DNA of 64,000 nt. Origin: Chlorobaculum tepidum TLS. GTDB taxonomy: Bacteria; Bacteroidota; Chlorobiia; Chlorobiales; Chlorobiaceae. Location: contig NC_002932.3 in assembly GCF_000006985.1 (NCBI RefSeq), positions 917,109 to 981,108 of the forward strand, written 5' to 3'. The notes beneath the pieces were generated by a model. It was not told where the DNA came from. It saw only the letters and a list, made by a program, of their open reading frames with translations, and ran no database searches. A program made the position numbers and the translations under genes. Position 1 is the first letter of the stretch. Every line of letters starts with the position of its first letter. Below, piece after piece: positions 25,260-31,015 of this stretch.

Positions 25260-25561
25260 GCCGTTAGGTGAAGCTGAAAAAATTCAAAATACAAAAAACG
25301 CCAGCCATGTTGAAACGCGGCGTCAAGATTGTGGAAGGGATAGGGGAGTCGGCCTCTTTCGCGTTCAAATACCGATTGCCGGTCGCGATCTTTGTATTTG
25401 TCGATAGCGTAACTATTTGGTATATAATGACATGCTGATGTATGTGACAGTTACTGTTCACTGTGAAGGTAAACTCTGGGAATGTTGATGAGCGATTAGG
25501 GAAAAAGAGCATGAGGATGTTACCTTTATTTGATAAATAAATGTTATAAGGAGTGTGTAAA
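25260..25561. other. AT-rich divergent intergenic region
   Basis: About 300 bp between the MFS gene (minus) and the OLD-like nuclease gene (plus). Base composition falls steadily towards the nuclease. A 109-codon minus-strand frame crosses it but shows no domain and overlaps the nuclease start, so I do not call it. The sequence AAGGAG (25548-25553), 8 bp before ATG 25562, is a clear ribosome binding site. Confidence 0.6.
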
Positions 25562-27310
25562 ATGATTACTCGATTAACACTCAGAAATTTCAAGAATGTT
25601 CAAGAACAAACCTATGAGTTTACAGAGTTTGATCTGCTGGTCGGACGAAATAATAGTGGAAAAAGTACAGTATTGCAGGCTATAGCTATCTGGCAATATT
25701 GTATAGATGAGTTTCATCGTTCAAACAGAAGCGGTACCAAAGGAATTCAGATTGTTCTGCCAAATTTTACTGCATTGCCTGTTCCAGAATTTAACTTGTT
25801 GTGGAGAAATAAGACTGATCGCGAGTATCCTTTTGAAGAGGGGAAGAAAAAACAGAAGTTTATTCTTATTCAAATTATAGTTGAGTGGAAAGTATCAGCT
25901 AACAAAAGAGAAGAGTTTGGTATAGATTTACGTTATCAGTCTCCGCAAACCATTTATGCAATTCCGGAAGGGGGTTGGGGGCGATTCAGGGAATTAGAGG
26001 ATATTTTGCCAAGAATTGCCTATGTTCCGCCATTTTCGGGATTAGACCCTATGGAGAAGTGGTTGGATATCGCGCCTATTCGACAGCAAGTAGGAAAGGG
26101 TCAGCCGGGTAGTGTTTTGAGAAATTTGCTCTATAAAGTAAAACGTGATGAAGAGCGAGGCGATGATTGGGGTGAATTGGCAAGCATTGTAAAAAAGTGG
26201 TTCTCTGTTGAAATATGCGAACCTGTTTATGATAAAGAGAGAGATGTTCATATCAAAGTTGAATATCGTCAAAATGGAAAAGAGTTTGATATAATTTCTG
26301 GGGGAAGTGGTTTTCACCAGACCTTGACTTTGCTGGCCTTTTTATATGGTTATAATCCGACAGTAATACTTCTTGATGAACCAGACGCCCATCTTCATGT
26401 CAATTTGCAGCGCGAAATTCTGGACTATTTCAAGCGAAAGTCTCAAGAAAAAAGTATCCAGTTTCTTATTGCTACTCACGCGGAAGAGTTTGCCAAAGGG
26501 GTCGATGCAAGCCAGATCATTTCTCTTATGGGTCAAGAACCTGAAAGAATAGAATCTGTCCCAAAAGTGATTCGGGCAATGGCTGAAGTTTCAAATGAAG
26601 ACATTGTGAGAACTTTGGCTTACCCCTATATTGTGTATGTAGAAGGCGAAAGCGATGAGCGAATAATAAGAGCATGGTCTTCAGCATGTGGTGCCGATGA
26701 AGTTATAGATAAAGTCTGTTTCAAGGCTATGAGTGGCGGGGACAAGCAGAAGATGAAAAAGTTTGCTGATAAGCATTTTGAGGCATTAAAGCAGATTGTC
26801 CCCAAGCTTCAGAGGATCATTCTTCTTGATTACGACGAAAGCGAGGACTATCATCCGCAGAAAGACAATGAGGTTTTGTATGAGTGGCAAAGAAAAAATA
26901 TCGAGAATTATCTTTTTGTTCCTGATGTTTGGAAGCGAGTTGCTTCAGAAAAGATCGGATTACCTGAAGGAGATTTGTTCTTGGAGCCAGTATTACGTTT
27001 AATAGACGACTATTTTGAATCTCAAAACCTTGTATTGCCAAAAAAACAAAGCTGGAAAAATGTGTCTGCCGAAGTATTCAAAATTGTTGATGGCAAGAAG
27101 CTGTTATTTGAAAGAGATGATTCTTTGTTTCATCAATTAAGTAAATTGTTTCATCAATTAAGTAAAAATAATCCATCGATACAGGTTTTGCGAGAGGAGA
27201 TTGCCTTGAATATGAAACGAGAGGAGATTGCCTTGAATATGAAAGAGGAAGAAATTCATGAAGATGTGCATGAGTTCATGAATAAATTGAAATCATTATT
27301 TAACCCTTAG
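25562..27310 (+). CDS. OLD-family ATP-dependent nuclease (AAA_15 ATPase plus TOPRIM domain)
   Basis: 582 residues. The N-terminal SMC/RecF-like ATPase has Walker A GRNNSGKST (about residue 28), a signature-like SGGSGFHQTLTLLAF, Walker B VILLDEPDAHLH and the H-loop ATHAEEF. A C-terminal TOPRIM domain follows, with YVEGESDE holding the metal Glu and LLDYDESEDY with the acidic pair. This ATPase-TOPRIM layout is that of OLD nucleases, several of which act in phage defence. No UvrD-like gajB or reverse transcriptase is adjacent, so it resembles solitary class 1 OLD proteins. The gene is much richer in A+T than its neighbours. Its tail carries two in-frame tandem duplications. Confidence 0.85.
   Translation: MITRLTLRNFKNVQEQTYEFTEFDLLVGRNNSGKSTVLQAIAIWQYCIDEFHRSNRSGTKGIQIVLPNFTALPVPEFNLLWRNKTDREYPFEEGKKKQKFILIQIIVEWKVSANKREEFGIDLRYQSPQTIYAIPEGGWGRFRELEDILPRIAYVPPFSGLDPMEKWLDIAPIRQQVGKGQPGSVLRNLLYKVKRDEERGDDWGELASIVKKWFSVEICEPVYDKERDVHIKVEYRQNGKEFDIISGGSGFHQTLTLLAFLYGYNPTVILLDEPDAHLHVNLQREILDYFKRKSQEKSIQFLIATHAEEFAKGVDASQIISLMGQEPERIESVPKVIRAMAEVSNEDIVRTLAYPYIVYVEGESDERIIRAWSSACGADEVIDKVCFKAMSGGDKQKMKKFADKHFEALKQIVPKLQRIILLDYDESEDYHPQKDNEVLYEWQRKNIENYLFVPDVWKRVASEKIGLPEGDLFLEPVLRLIDDYFESQNLVLPKKQSWKNVSAEVFKIVDGKKLLFERDDSLFHQLSKLFHQLSKNNPSIQVLREEIALNMKREEIALNMKEEEIHEDVHEFMNKLKSLFNP
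27125..27166 (+). repeat. Perfect 21-bp tandem duplication in the OLD-like gene
   Basis: Two identical 21-bp units (27125-27145 and 27146-27166) encode LFHQLSK twice without shifting the frame, after the TOPRIM domain. Confidence 0.95.
27191..27244 (+). repeat. Perfect 27-bp tandem duplication in the OLD-like gene
   Basis: Two identical 27-bp units (27191-27217 and 27218-27244) encode REEIALNMK twice, in frame, 24 bp after the first duplication. Confidence 0.95.
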
Positions 27311-27949: not shown

Positions 27950-28079
27950 CGGCGGGCGCAGTATGCCAGACAAGCGATTCCGCGGGTATTGAGCAGAAAA
28001 GCATTTTAGCAGAAGTTTGCCGGATTTGGAAGGGATATTGTCCCCGATGGGCATTGATCGGGCAGGCCTTGATTCGGTA

Positions 28080-28105
28080 TCGGGACGGTCTCAAAACCGT
28101 CCCGA
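28080..28105. terminator. Perfect hairpin between convergent genes
   Basis: TCGGGACGGT and ACCGTCCCGA form a 10-bp stem with a 6-base loop between the deaminase (plus) and SDR (minus) genes. There is no T-run; the position suggests a transcription-end structure for both. Confidence 0.6.
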
Positions 28106-28136
28106 CATAAATGAGTTATCTTTTCATTCTCAATTC

Positions 28137-29015
28137 TCAACTGCCTTTCGCGGCCATCTCCTCGAAGAACTCGCGCAGGCGGTGCGTGCCGTACTGCGGG
28201 GCCACGGTATCGTTCTTGCTGACCGTGGCGGCGAAGAGCGCTATGTCGTGGATGTCCCGGTTGATGACGCCCGTGACGGCGGCAATACCGTCGGCCAGCC
28301 ATGTCGGCAGCTCGATGTTGAATGGCTGTTTTTTGACCACGTCGGCGGCCATCATGGCTACCTGCCTGTAGGTGAAAATCTCCGGCCCGCCTGCGTCGAT
28401 CTCTTTGGCGTCACCTTCTGCAGCATCGACGCACACCTTGGCCAGATCGGCGCCGTGGATGGGGTTCGAGCGCGTCTGGCCATCGCCGAGCGAGAACATG
28501 AAGCCGTTGCGCGCCATGTTCAGAAACTGCGCCATGTCGGAGAAATAGCCCGTGGGACGCACGACCGCATACTCCAGCCCCGAGGCCCGCAATTCGTCCA
28601 CGAACTTCTCGTGCGCCTGGATGTTCTCGATCTCCATCATCTTCTGCGCATTGAACACCGAGATGTAGACGAACTTTCTCACCTTCGCCTTCATCGCCTC
28701 GCGCATGATGTTCAGGTTCGCCTTGTAATCGACATCGAAGCTCGAATGCACGAAATCGGGCCGGGTCATGCCGAGTGATGAAAACACGATTTCGATGCCG
28801 TCGCACACACCGGCGAGGTTCTCCGGTTTTGTGGCGTCAGCGGTAAAGAGTTCGTCAGCAAGGTCGGCAACGACCGGTTCGAGATGCGGGCCTGGCTTTT
28901 TGGCTTTTTCCGGATCACGCGCCAGCGCGCGTACCCAGTAGCCGCGATTCTTGAACTCCTGCACCACATGGCTCCCGATATAGCCGGTCGAACCGGCGAC
29001 AAGCACTTTTTTCAT
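28137..29015 (-). CDS. NAD(P)-binding atypical SDR (NmrA-like)
   Basis: 292 residues with the nucleotide-binding motif VAGSTGYIGSHVV at residues 6-18 and a central KVRKFVYISVF stretch. It lacks a complete YxxxK catalytic pair, as in atypical short-chain dehydrogenases of the NmrA/HSCARG kind, which act as redox sensors, reductases or assembly factors. Substrate is unknown. The start codon is well placed by the Rossmann motif, but the region where the ribosome binding site should lie is a run of twelve C residues (on the coding strand) at -8 to -19. Confidence 0.85.
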   Translation of the reverse strand: MKKVLVAGSTGYIGSHVVQEFKNRGYWVRALARDPEKAKKPGPHLEPVVADLADELFTADATKPENLAGVCDGIEIVFSSLGMTRPDFVHSSFDVDYKANLNIMREAMKAKVRKFVYISVFNAQKMMEIENIQAHEKFVDELRASGLEYAVVRPTGYFSDMAQFLNMARNGFMFSLGDGQTRSNPIHGADLAKVCVDAAEGDAKEIDAGGPEIFTYRQVAMMAADVVKKQPFNIELPTWLADGIAAVTGVINRDIHDIALFAATVSKNDTVAPQYGTHRLREFFEEMAAKGS

Positions 29016-29092: not shown

Positions 29093-30058
29093 TCAAAACG
29101 CTTTCATCTTTTTGACCTCTTTTCTCCAGCAGTGAAACAAAATGTGTCCGGCGTACCCCGCATACTCGGCTCCGAGGATGGCGCGCGCCTTTTCCTGGAG
29201 GATGCGGTAGTTCTTTTCTGTCAGGCTGTGGCGGGCCTCTTCGATGCCGAACCACTCCCAGAGGTACTGTTTGACATGCGTGTCAATCGGGAAGGCGTCG
29301 AACCGTCCAAGCCCGAAAAGGGCGATGCAGTCGGCGATTTTCAGGCCGATTCCGCTGTGCACGCACAAGGTTTCGCGAAGCGTTTCGAGATCGCATTTGC
29401 CCGAATCGACGCACGCCAGAGCCAGTTTGCCTGACTCGAAAGAGCGTGCCATAGCGATGATGTTTGCCGCCCTTATCCGGTTGTTATTCGTGCATACTGC
29501 CAGTTCATTCGGGTCCGCAGACGCAAGAGCTTGCGGGGGAGGAAAGCTGTGAAACGTCAAGTTGCCTTCTGGCAACTCCAGCATAATCTTTTGGCCATAC
29601 CGTTCGGCGATCATCGAAACCTGGCGACGGATCAGGTGCATGCCTATGCCCTGGGCGCACATGAAGGTGACCATTATTTCAAAAGGGTCCTGCCGCATGA
29701 CCCGGACGGAGCGGTACGACTGAACCAGGTTCCAGACTTCGGGGAATTCCTGTTGAAACCTTGATGAGAATACGGTTTCCTCTTGAAAATCAAGAGAGAA
29801 AAGGTGTTTTAAAAATTCATTGATTGGTTTACCGGAAAGCTCTTGATCGGTGCAGAGTACTTCAATCATTTCAGAATTAATCTCACATATAAAAATAATA
29901 GAGTTGTATATTACTGAAGAGTAATAGCTCTTTAGTGTCTCGTTTAGATTCCACCTAAAGCTTTGACCACTTTGCACTGTATCTTTAAAGTTGAGTCTTG
30001 ATTTGGTGTTCAATAGTGATGAGTATATTTTTTTATGAGTAATCATAATGTCTGGCAT
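29093..30058 (-). CDS. 8-oxoguanine DNA glycosylase-like protein (OGG1/HhH-GPD)
   Basis: 321 residues. The N-terminal part has GQSFRW, typical of the OGG1 family. The helix-hairpin-helix and catalytic region reads SGIGLKIADCIALFGLGRFDAFPIDTHV, with the Schiff-base Lys and the catalytic Asp both in place (quoted here in two parts: SGIGLKIADCIALFG, then FDAFPIDTHV). It should excise 8-oxoguanine opposite C. The 3' two-thirds of the gene has the normal composition, but the 5' third (29760-30058) is as AT-rich as the intergenic sequence upstream. This may be a mosaic gene. It stands alone. Confidence 0.85.
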   Translation of the reverse strand: MPDIMITHKKIYSSLLNTKSRLNFKDTVQSGQSFRWNLNETLKSYYSSVIYNSIIFICEINSEMIEVLCTDQELSGKPINEFLKHLFSLDFQEETVFSSRFQQEFPEVWNLVQSYRSVRVMRQDPFEIMVTFMCAQGIGMHLIRRQVSMIAERYGQKIMLELPEGNLTFHSFPPPQALASADPNELAVCTNNNRIRAANIIAMARSFESGKLALACVDSGKCDLETLRETLCVHSGIGLKIADCIALFGLGRFDAFPIDTHVKQYLWEWFGIEEARHSLTEKNYRILQEKARAILGAEYAGYAGHILFHCWRKEVKKMKAF

Positions 30059-31015
30059 TAATTTGAATATTCATATAAAATTTGGTTGTTATTTGTGTTA
30101 TGATAAAGTATTTAAATTGAATAACTTAAATTATTTTATCTTATAATATATTTATTATATTTTTTAGTTTATTTTATCTTGTCTTAATTGTTTTTTATTG
30201 GTTATTATATTCAGATTTATGGTCTTTTGTATATGTATTTAATGTCTAGAATTACTTTTTTATTGGATTTTATCTATCTGATGTTTTTGTGATTGCTATT
30301 TGGTCTTTTGATTTGGTTTATATTGATGGTAAAAATATTTAAGAGTAATATTTTAAGCTGTAACTAAGTTCATAGCGCATATTTTATTTCTGTTTTGAAT
30401 GTAAGATGATTTAGTGTTTAGTTTTTTTTCTACGCTTGTGTTTTTCGGTTTTAAAACCCATCATAGAGTCTTAATGCTGTTGCAGTATTGGCTTTTTTGA
30501 TTGTGGTTTTCTGGACGATAAAGTCATTATGTGCCATGGTTGACAAGCGCTGATACGGGAAGCCTGAGCAGATAAGTTTGACGATTACCATCGGGCTGTC
30601 GCCTTTTTTTGCGATTCTAAACAGGTTCAGTCAGCATTCCTGATGGCTTGATAAATCGAGATGCGGATGAATTTTTCTGATGAATTTCCCGCCAATCTGA
30701 TGCTGTGACCTGGTACGAGAGCAGCTCGTCGCCTGCTCTTGGAAGGCAGTATCGGTCTGTTGCCGGATGCTTTGTTGAATAATGAAGAACCAGAACAGAA
30801 TACGGGTTACAACAGTTCAGCTCGATGTATTGTCAATCGTGAGGATCAGGCAGGAATCACGAGAAAAGAGACTATCGGTGCTTCGGTATGGTTTGGGCTG
30901 GTATGTGTCACAGATGAATCTGTCGCTTATAGGTATGATGGTTTGGCGGCACGATCGCTGAGGTTATGGACTACGCCTTCCTTGAAGAAGCAGCAGATCG
31001 CGAAGGCTGGAACGC
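30059..31015. other. Long AT-rich region without a convincing gene
   Basis: The first ~420 bp are extremely AT-rich. On the minus strand, 30451-30591 holds a 46-codon frame (MVIVKLICSGFPYQRL start, RLYDGF end) whose open reading extends further upstream without a start; it could be the end of a lost gene. From about 30640 composition returns to normal. A 106-codon plus-strand frame (30739-31059) overlaps the toxin gene and has no domain; I regard it as chance. The only recognisable piece is an antitoxin tail just before the toxin. Confidence 0.6.

Follow-up and report, generated by a model that had tools for sequence, protein, structure and literature searches.

The Old protein of P2 kills recBC- cells, for which both of its activities are needed (PMC7049728; this and the other papers are cited from extracts of their text). 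Gabija GajA is a characterised OLD relative (PMC10568477), and AriB is a TOPRIM nuclease that cuts tRNA (PMC12409363). The E. coli protein YbjD is a solitary OLD protein; its induced expression is anti-phage and its TOPRIM domain is dispensable, according to the extract (PMC13261556). Furthermore, at least 11 uncharacterised OLD clades (U1-U11), five of which are mainly bacterial, have been described alongside a non-defence OLD class, the archaeal Cran1, which is reported to have a role in cell maintenance (PMC12796447).

Here, we analysed an OLD-type gene at positions 25562-27310 (forward strand) of the window, which is the whole analysed stretch of 64 kb; the host genome is a single contig of 2,154,946 bp. 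The gene starts with the ATG at 25562, ends with the stop codon at 27308-27310 and encodes 582 amino acids in an intact frame. Its neighbours, as named by Pfam, are an MFS transporter gene on the opposite strand and a cytidine-deaminase-family gene (deaminase gene below) on the same strand. We consider it probable that this is a solitary OLD-family ATPase-nuclease, most likely anti-phage, with two tolerated microduplications. Judging from characterised relatives, its ABC ATPase head would respond to a state of the cell linked to infection and would license a two-metal TOPRIM nuclease to cut nucleic acid; the target would be DNA if the protein acts like Ts OLD and GajA, or tRNA if it acts like AriB. 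Horizontal transfer would have brought the gene into the intergenic space that separates a membrane-protein-like gene from the deaminase gene. Two C-terminal helical segments (7 and 9 aa) would each have been duplicated once in frame, and the 16 added residues would lengthen a linker of already variable length, downstream of the TOPRIM acids.

Motifs, composition and family assignment

The window protein exceeds the Pfam cut-offs for AAA_15 (72.1 bits) and AAA_21 (70.2 bits). The features of the gene are given below; residue counts are taken from alignment A2 (15 sequences) and use the rows that reach each position.

25548..25553, + strand: AAGGAG, ribosome-binding-like site read from the sequence, 8 nt before the ATG; also present before the OLD gene in L029
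25643..25666, + strand: Walker A GRNNSGKS (residues 28-35); G33 and K34 in 14/14 rows
26297..26320, + strand: ABC-signature-like SGGSGFHQ (residues 246-253), which, judged by eye, keeps part of the signature; G248, G250 and Q253 invariant in 15 rows
26363..26392, + strand: Walker B and D-loop VILLDEPDAH (residues 268-277); D272, E273, D275 and H277 in 15/15 rows
26477..26479, + strand: H-loop His306; 15/15 rows
26642..26656, + strand: TOPRIM motif ExxxD (E361, D365); 14/14 rows
26828..26836, + strand: TOPRIM motif DxD (D423, D425); D423 in 13/13 rows, D425 in 11/13 (L in L062 and L063)
26891..26911, + strand: RKNIENY of the TOPRIM region (residues 444-450, with E448); E448 in 12/13 rows (D in L064)
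27092..27097, + strand: GK (G511-K512) in the C-terminal helical part; most rows, but not L062, L063 and L068 (AK)
27125..27166, + strand: 21-bp unit in two perfect copies (LFHQLSK twice, residues 522-535); 2.0 copies, 100% match
27191..27244, + strand: 27-bp unit in two perfect copies (REEIALNMK twice, residues 544-561); 2.0 copies, 100% match

The TOPRIM acids were recognised by motif and spacing. The metal ligands of Ts OLD are E377, D381, D431, D433 and S478/E480; the acids E361, D365, D423, D425 and E448 of the window protein resemble this pattern, and the spacing of E361 and D365 equals that of E377 and D381 (extract of PMC7049728). No TOPRIM-type model of Pfam matched at its cut-off: for the window protein, the best was DUF4435 with 15.3 bits (E 0.017, cut-off 27), which was also the best sub-threshold match of the relative at L026. 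Below the cut-offs were likewise the matches of L024 to OLD-like_TOPRIM (15.9 bits, cut-off 23.2) and of L066 to DUF3226 (25.5 bits, cut-off 27). DUF4435 is the domain carried by AriB. A catalytic role for the K512-type GK, by likeness to K562 of Bp OLD, is only a guess.

When compared to the PADLOC models, the window protein had many matches that are ATPase-based and alike in strength: NsnB (92.2 bits), mad3 (80.6), AriAB (71.5), PtuA (62.3), GajA (57.6) and Old (51.1). The top match, NsnB, was set aside as a name for the gene; its best stretch (residues 180-316) lies inside the ATPase. In a Foldseek search of the PDB with the predicted model, retron and Septu PtuA structures ranked first, and Ts OLD (6p74) and GajA (8sm3) were found at ranks 29 and 33 with 586 and 670 columns (gaps included) and TM-scores of only ~0.3. 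VIA-align gave ATPase matches with Z up to 22 to the heads of SMC and PtuA; these span residues 1-361 at most and are silent on the C-terminal part. The ATPase part of the protein is well supported. The models above cut-off, the invariant ATPase motifs and the conserved TOPRIM acids bear out the complete ATPase core and, by motif, the TOPRIM domain that an earlier note on this DNA had described. By motif and architecture, the window protein is a putative OLD-type ATPase-nuclease with a divergent TOPRIM part.

The same note had the composition of the gene differ sharply from both neighbours. This proved correct: GC is 0.384 (38%) for the gene versus 0.548 (55%) for the window, and GC3 is 0.35 for the gene, whereas the MFS gene upstream of it has 0.81 and the deaminase gene downstream has 0.67. 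A GC3 of 0.30-0.38 is common to all four Chlorobaculum OLD copies, so the low value is a property of the gene and not a mark of very recent arrival. Elsewhere in the window, the stretch 29750-30500, which adjoins a DNA-glycosylase-like gene (named by reading the sequence), is very AT-rich (GC 0.23-0.26) and holds weak TTATA-type repeats at 30126-30208.

Relatives, insertion site and selection

Homologues of the window gene are about 50-84% identical to it. In the phylum sample, 9 of 394 genomes match at E<=1e-60, the own genome included, and the family search found 16 of 86 genomes at E <= 1e-25, namely eight close copies, the fragment in G008 and seven distant ones (25-30% identity). A relative from another phylum can be closer than one from the same phylum: L024 from Hydrogenedentes is 61-62% identical, versus 50-54% for G059. 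Among 72,556 plasmid records, 17 match, all of them under 30% identity, and among 50,697 phage records there was no tblastn match at E<=1e-5. The viral scan gave no relative with the single protein as query and 25 loci on IMG/VR contigs, more or less distant relatives, with alignment A1.

Some of these viral loci deserve description. L064-L069 and L073 encode OLD-like proteins of 597-604 aa that are 24-26% identical to the window protein. One of them, L066, matches PHROG 9802, a phage family of unknown function, over residues 1-462 (6.5e-110), and this family is therefore probably OLD-type. L060 and L061 (5001-7219; L060 with a tape-measure gene) encode a 343-aa ATPase half that is 63% identical over residues 1-337 and ends ahead of the TOPRIM part; the stop codon of this gene overlaps the beginning of a gene for a 396-aa AAA_21 ATPase. 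The two ATPases are possibly a pair that arose from an OLD gene, as a decoy or a split system.

Next to the OLD gene, the same neighbours were found in several congeners. In G016, the gene lies between the membrane-protein-like gene and the deaminase gene, and in G002 and G020 these two genes are 41 bp apart and the site is empty. OLD lies at the same place in the window, in G008 (L029, OLD after the membrane-protein-like gene) and in G010 (OLD before the deaminase gene), as far as the one readable side tells in each of these three. The OLD fragment of L029 matches the window gene at 91%. Six more congeners have the deaminase gene (L045, L047 and L050-L053); in the short stretch available for them, neither OLD nor the two upstream genes were seen.

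In G016 and L029, an M48-type peptidase gene and the membrane-protein-like gene (which has no Pfam match and reads as a membrane protein) are located between the MFS gene and OLD. The window is without these two genes at this position; its own genome has a 26% match to the first and, in a search that ran without a positive control, none to the second. Both were rejected as partners of OLD because G002 and G020 have them without OLD beside the deaminase gene. The window stretches 25260-25560 and 27950-28137 are without the genes that flank OLD in G016, including those of 594 aa and 372 aa on the other side.

We also compared synonymous divergence (Nei-Gojobori). Between the window and G016, dS of OLD is 1.33, a value near saturation as are all above 1, versus 0.33, 0.38, 0.24, 0.67, 0.39 and 0.45 for six flanking genes. 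Between G016 and G010, it is 0.20 for OLD versus 0.56 for the deaminase gene, and the comparison of the window with L029, limited to a fragment of 58 codons, gives no excess (OLD 0.57 versus MFS 0.60). Simple vertical descent from one insertion is not supported by the first two comparisons, whereas the L029 fragment lacks such an excess. A recent arrival in this strain was rejected as well, since the AT-rich copy adjoins the same neighbours in G016, G008/L029 and G010. We read these data as one favoured site at which the OLD allele may have been exchanged between lineages with its protein-level constraint kept, and the gene looks mobile. The transfer of the gene that had been proposed from its composition is upheld by that composition together with the empty site in two congeners, the synonymous divergence from G016 and the relatives in other phyla.

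The neighbourhoods of the relatives were searched for a shared partner gene. Open reading frames within 5 kb (contig permitting) were collected at 11 further loci (L024-L028 and L036-L041), and 24 neighbour proteins were scanned, 10 against PADLOC and 16 against Pfam, with two in both. No partner gene was shared among these proteins or with the two neighbours of the window copy. Just upstream of OLD, L037 harbours PtuA/PtuB-like genes (2.7e-87 and 5.3e-30) and L026 a type IIG restriction-methyltransferase gene (E = 0), with a RhuM/Fic gene downstream; at L039, a PDC-S09 protein is encoded near OLD. The other matches were to MnmE, a histone-deacetylase fold, an alpha/beta hydrolase, phosphoesterases, an FMN oxidoreductase, radical SAM and similar proteins, and several proteins gave no match. 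Neither direct neighbour of the window copy is a defence gene. This supports OLD as a solitary gene that sometimes lies among defence genes, and the check for partners in relatives bears out the earlier description as solitary: the neighbours differ, with no conserved partner among those scanned.

Several copies of the gene are broken. In G016, a single-contig genome, the frame is lost in an A-rich stretch of the tail (L035 10640-10690), next to the site of the first duplication in the window. This may point to relaxed constraint there, or to a spot that is prone to mutation. G259 has an internal TAG, and in G362 the first 58 codons are out of frame with the remainder. The main copy of G288 is shortened by roughly 50 residues at its beginning. 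Pieces of a second, degraded copy lie nearby (L039 9235-12688), and a PDC-S09-like gene is located between these pieces and the shortened first copy. The broken copies fit repeated gain and loss of the gene.

These breaks bring in the reading that the window gene itself is on its way to loss, with the duplications as early damage under relaxed selection in a protein that works poorly or not at all. A dN/dS of 0.165 between the OLD genes of G016 and G010 (0.137 in a slightly different cut) agrees with it, being above that of the pairs with the window. However, the assemblies of G259, G288 and G362 are drafts (94, 88 and 87% complete), so some of the breaks may be assembly faults, and the window gene has a complete frame and all motifs. 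Its dN/dS is 0.064 versus G016 and 0.064-0.067 versus G016 and G010, averages that do not span the time since the duplications. Its amino-acid sequence thus appears on the whole to be kept by selection, and we regard a gene in decay as unlikely.

A role in cell maintenance rather than defence, as for the archaeal Cran1, would also suit a solitary gene with a low dN/dS in the window pairs, and a non-defence OLD class does exist (PMC12796447). On the other hand, the gene is patchy in the phylum sample, several copies are broken, its relatives cross phyla and two of them have defence neighbours. The clade of Cran1 differs in that it tracks the species tree, according to the extract of the same paper. 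We therefore judge a maintenance role to be quite unlikely for this gene, and retain the anti-phage ATPase-nuclease with tolerated duplications as the preferred reading.

Two private duplications in the C-terminal tail

The perfect in-frame tandem repeats of 21 and 27 bp in the tail, noted earlier from the sequence, were confirmed exactly. Both lie inside the final 190 bp of the gene, within one stretch of 120 bp and 24 bp apart, and they score highest among the 38 tandem-repeat rows of the window. In a scan for perfect tandem duplications with units of 15-300 bp, these two were the only ones in the 64 kb. The same scan of 20 other stretches of the own genome (400 kb) gave two places, one with a 117-bp unit and one with a cluster of three overlapping rows, and none was found in 20 stretches (400 kb) of the congener G016. 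Chance identity is not plausible as the source of the repeats. Both arrays have exactly 2.00 copies and thus no extra shared base at the junctions, so slippage between pre-existing direct repeats is not favoured.

When the tails of the relatives were read, each unit was present once in 12/12 close relatives whose tail is readable (G016, G010, G259, G383, G263, G288, G362, G059 and L024-L027, close meaning an identity of about 50% or higher), and no third state was seen. Outside this count are G008/L029, with only the first 58 residues present, L028, which is cut by the end of its contig, and L060/L061, whose gene stops before the TOPRIM part. Moreover, among 24 OLD genes, the window gene and 10 of the 25 viral-contig loci (L060, L062-L069 and L073) included and the other 15 left out, no perfect tandem duplication of 12-200 bp was found besides the two in the window. 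Among the papers listed by our literature searches, none dealt with tandem duplications in OLD genes. None of the close relatives open to a check has the duplications, which look private to this genome. A tail of variable repeat number, as suggested earlier, is not supported by these relatives of other species: copy number is 2 in the window and 1 in all 12 of them, whereas the case named earlier as speaking against variability was two copies in all homologues.

In the relatives, the tail is made up of single units: first an SLFHxLRK-like helix, then a linker, and then a conserved end of the type RExVAxxMxxDEIHxDVxxFxxKL. The length from SL to the next R-E, counted by eye, is 16 residues in G010 and L024, 15 in L025, L026 and G059, and ~9 in viral-contig relatives such as L064, and thus varies without duplications. 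The window protein has 23 residues up to the first copy of REEIALNMK and 32 up to the second one. Beyond residue 441, the predicted model of the window protein (mean pLDDT 83.6) shows nine helices over 141 residues, and no strand. In this model, both 7-residue copies form one lengthened helix (522-536), the block 541-550, which contains most of the first 9-residue copy, drops to pLDDT 55, and the second 9-residue copy (553-561) takes the position of the conserved helix with pLDDT about 89. The model of the single-copy relative L024 has helices at 542-548 and 557-562 and no extra element. The extra copies are thus predicted to lie downstream of the TOPRIM acids, in the linker that joins two conserved helices of the C-terminal part and whose length is uneven in the family anyway. 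As to whether the repeated residues are buried in the core fold, the prediction puts the extra copies in this linker, where they lengthen one helix and fill a low-confidence stretch. To go by YbjD, the TOPRIM end, and hence the tail, may be of little importance to some phenotypes (extract of PMC13261556).

Taken together, the duplications are probably tolerated rather than selected. An adaptive origin, in which a longer regulatory linker alters the activation threshold or the oligomer geometry and the copy number can revert by slippage, seems very unlikely to us. Both units are perfect, multiples of three and within the same 120-bp stretch, the 7-aa unit is about two helical turns long and the model shows one longer helix; however, the state is seen in one genome at one copy number, and the multiple-of-three lengths are partly survivorship, because frame-breaking duplications in a kept gene go unseen. 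An odd clustering remains: two rare duplications lie 24 bp apart, beside the place where G016 loses its frame, which suggests more clustering than independent neutral events would give. In type I restriction systems, repeats in the spacer of the specificity subunit alter its function. Similarly, the stretch between the last two conserved helices could be a duplication-prone, length-tunable linker that sets how easily the nuclease switches on, its set point here shifted by 7 + 9 residues, an idea we hold to be a long shot. That the repeats are an assembly or sequencing artefact is hardly credible: the species is represented here by one assembly, but two units of unequal length are each doubled exactly once with the frame kept in a single-contig genome, which has two other such places in 400 kb.

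If the preferred reading of a solitary anti-phage nuclease with tolerated duplications is right, what had been suspected to be a variable defence nuclease becomes a mobile solitary OLD gene with two private microduplications. Solitary OLD-type genes are also documented as a group, which extends from Chlorobiaceae to other phyla and may help to sort the uncharacterised OLD clades. In addition, the natural two-copy and one-copy versions offer a cheap test of the role of the C-terminal linker.

Comparison with the numbered OLD classes

Like the members of class 1 (P2 Old, Ts OLD 6p74 and E. coli YbjD), the window gene is solitary and encodes an ABC ATPase followed by a TOPRIM part with the acids E...D, DxD and E. 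In contrast to Ts OLD, a protein of 528 residues with 48 residues after E480, the window protein has 134 residues after E448, which are helix or coil in the model, and it keeps the Walker B Asp (LLDEPD) where Ts OLD has E276; Ts OLD is said in the extract to lack a C-terminal helical domain (PMC7049728). Class 1 is further marked by a degenerate ABC signature, of which SGGSGFHQ in the window protein keeps a part, and by a location away from other candidate defence genes, which the two neighbours of the window gene fit but the surroundings of L037 and L026 do not.

Gabija GajA (class 2) shares the order of ATPase, TOPRIM and C-terminal helices with the window protein, is found by Foldseek (8sm3) and has a best PADLOC match of 2.5e-16. 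Different from GajA, no helicase is encoded by the two neighbours of the window gene or by the scanned neighbours of its relatives. The same neighbours also lack the reverse transcriptase that would be expected next to a gene of the retron-associated class 3. For PARIS AriA/AriB (class 4), the match to the fused AriAB model has its best stretch only at residues 228-456, across ATPase and TOPRIM, and this score is far from a family assignment; the window protein is one chain, with no ariA/ariB pair.

No numbered class is given to the gene, because it is solitary like class 1 yet has a long helical tail and the Walker B Asp, has no partner of class 2 or 3 as either neighbour and is one chain unlike class 4. 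The window family may belong to one of the clades U1-U11, and we call its gene a solitary OLD-family nuclease gene that fits no numbered OLD class cleanly.
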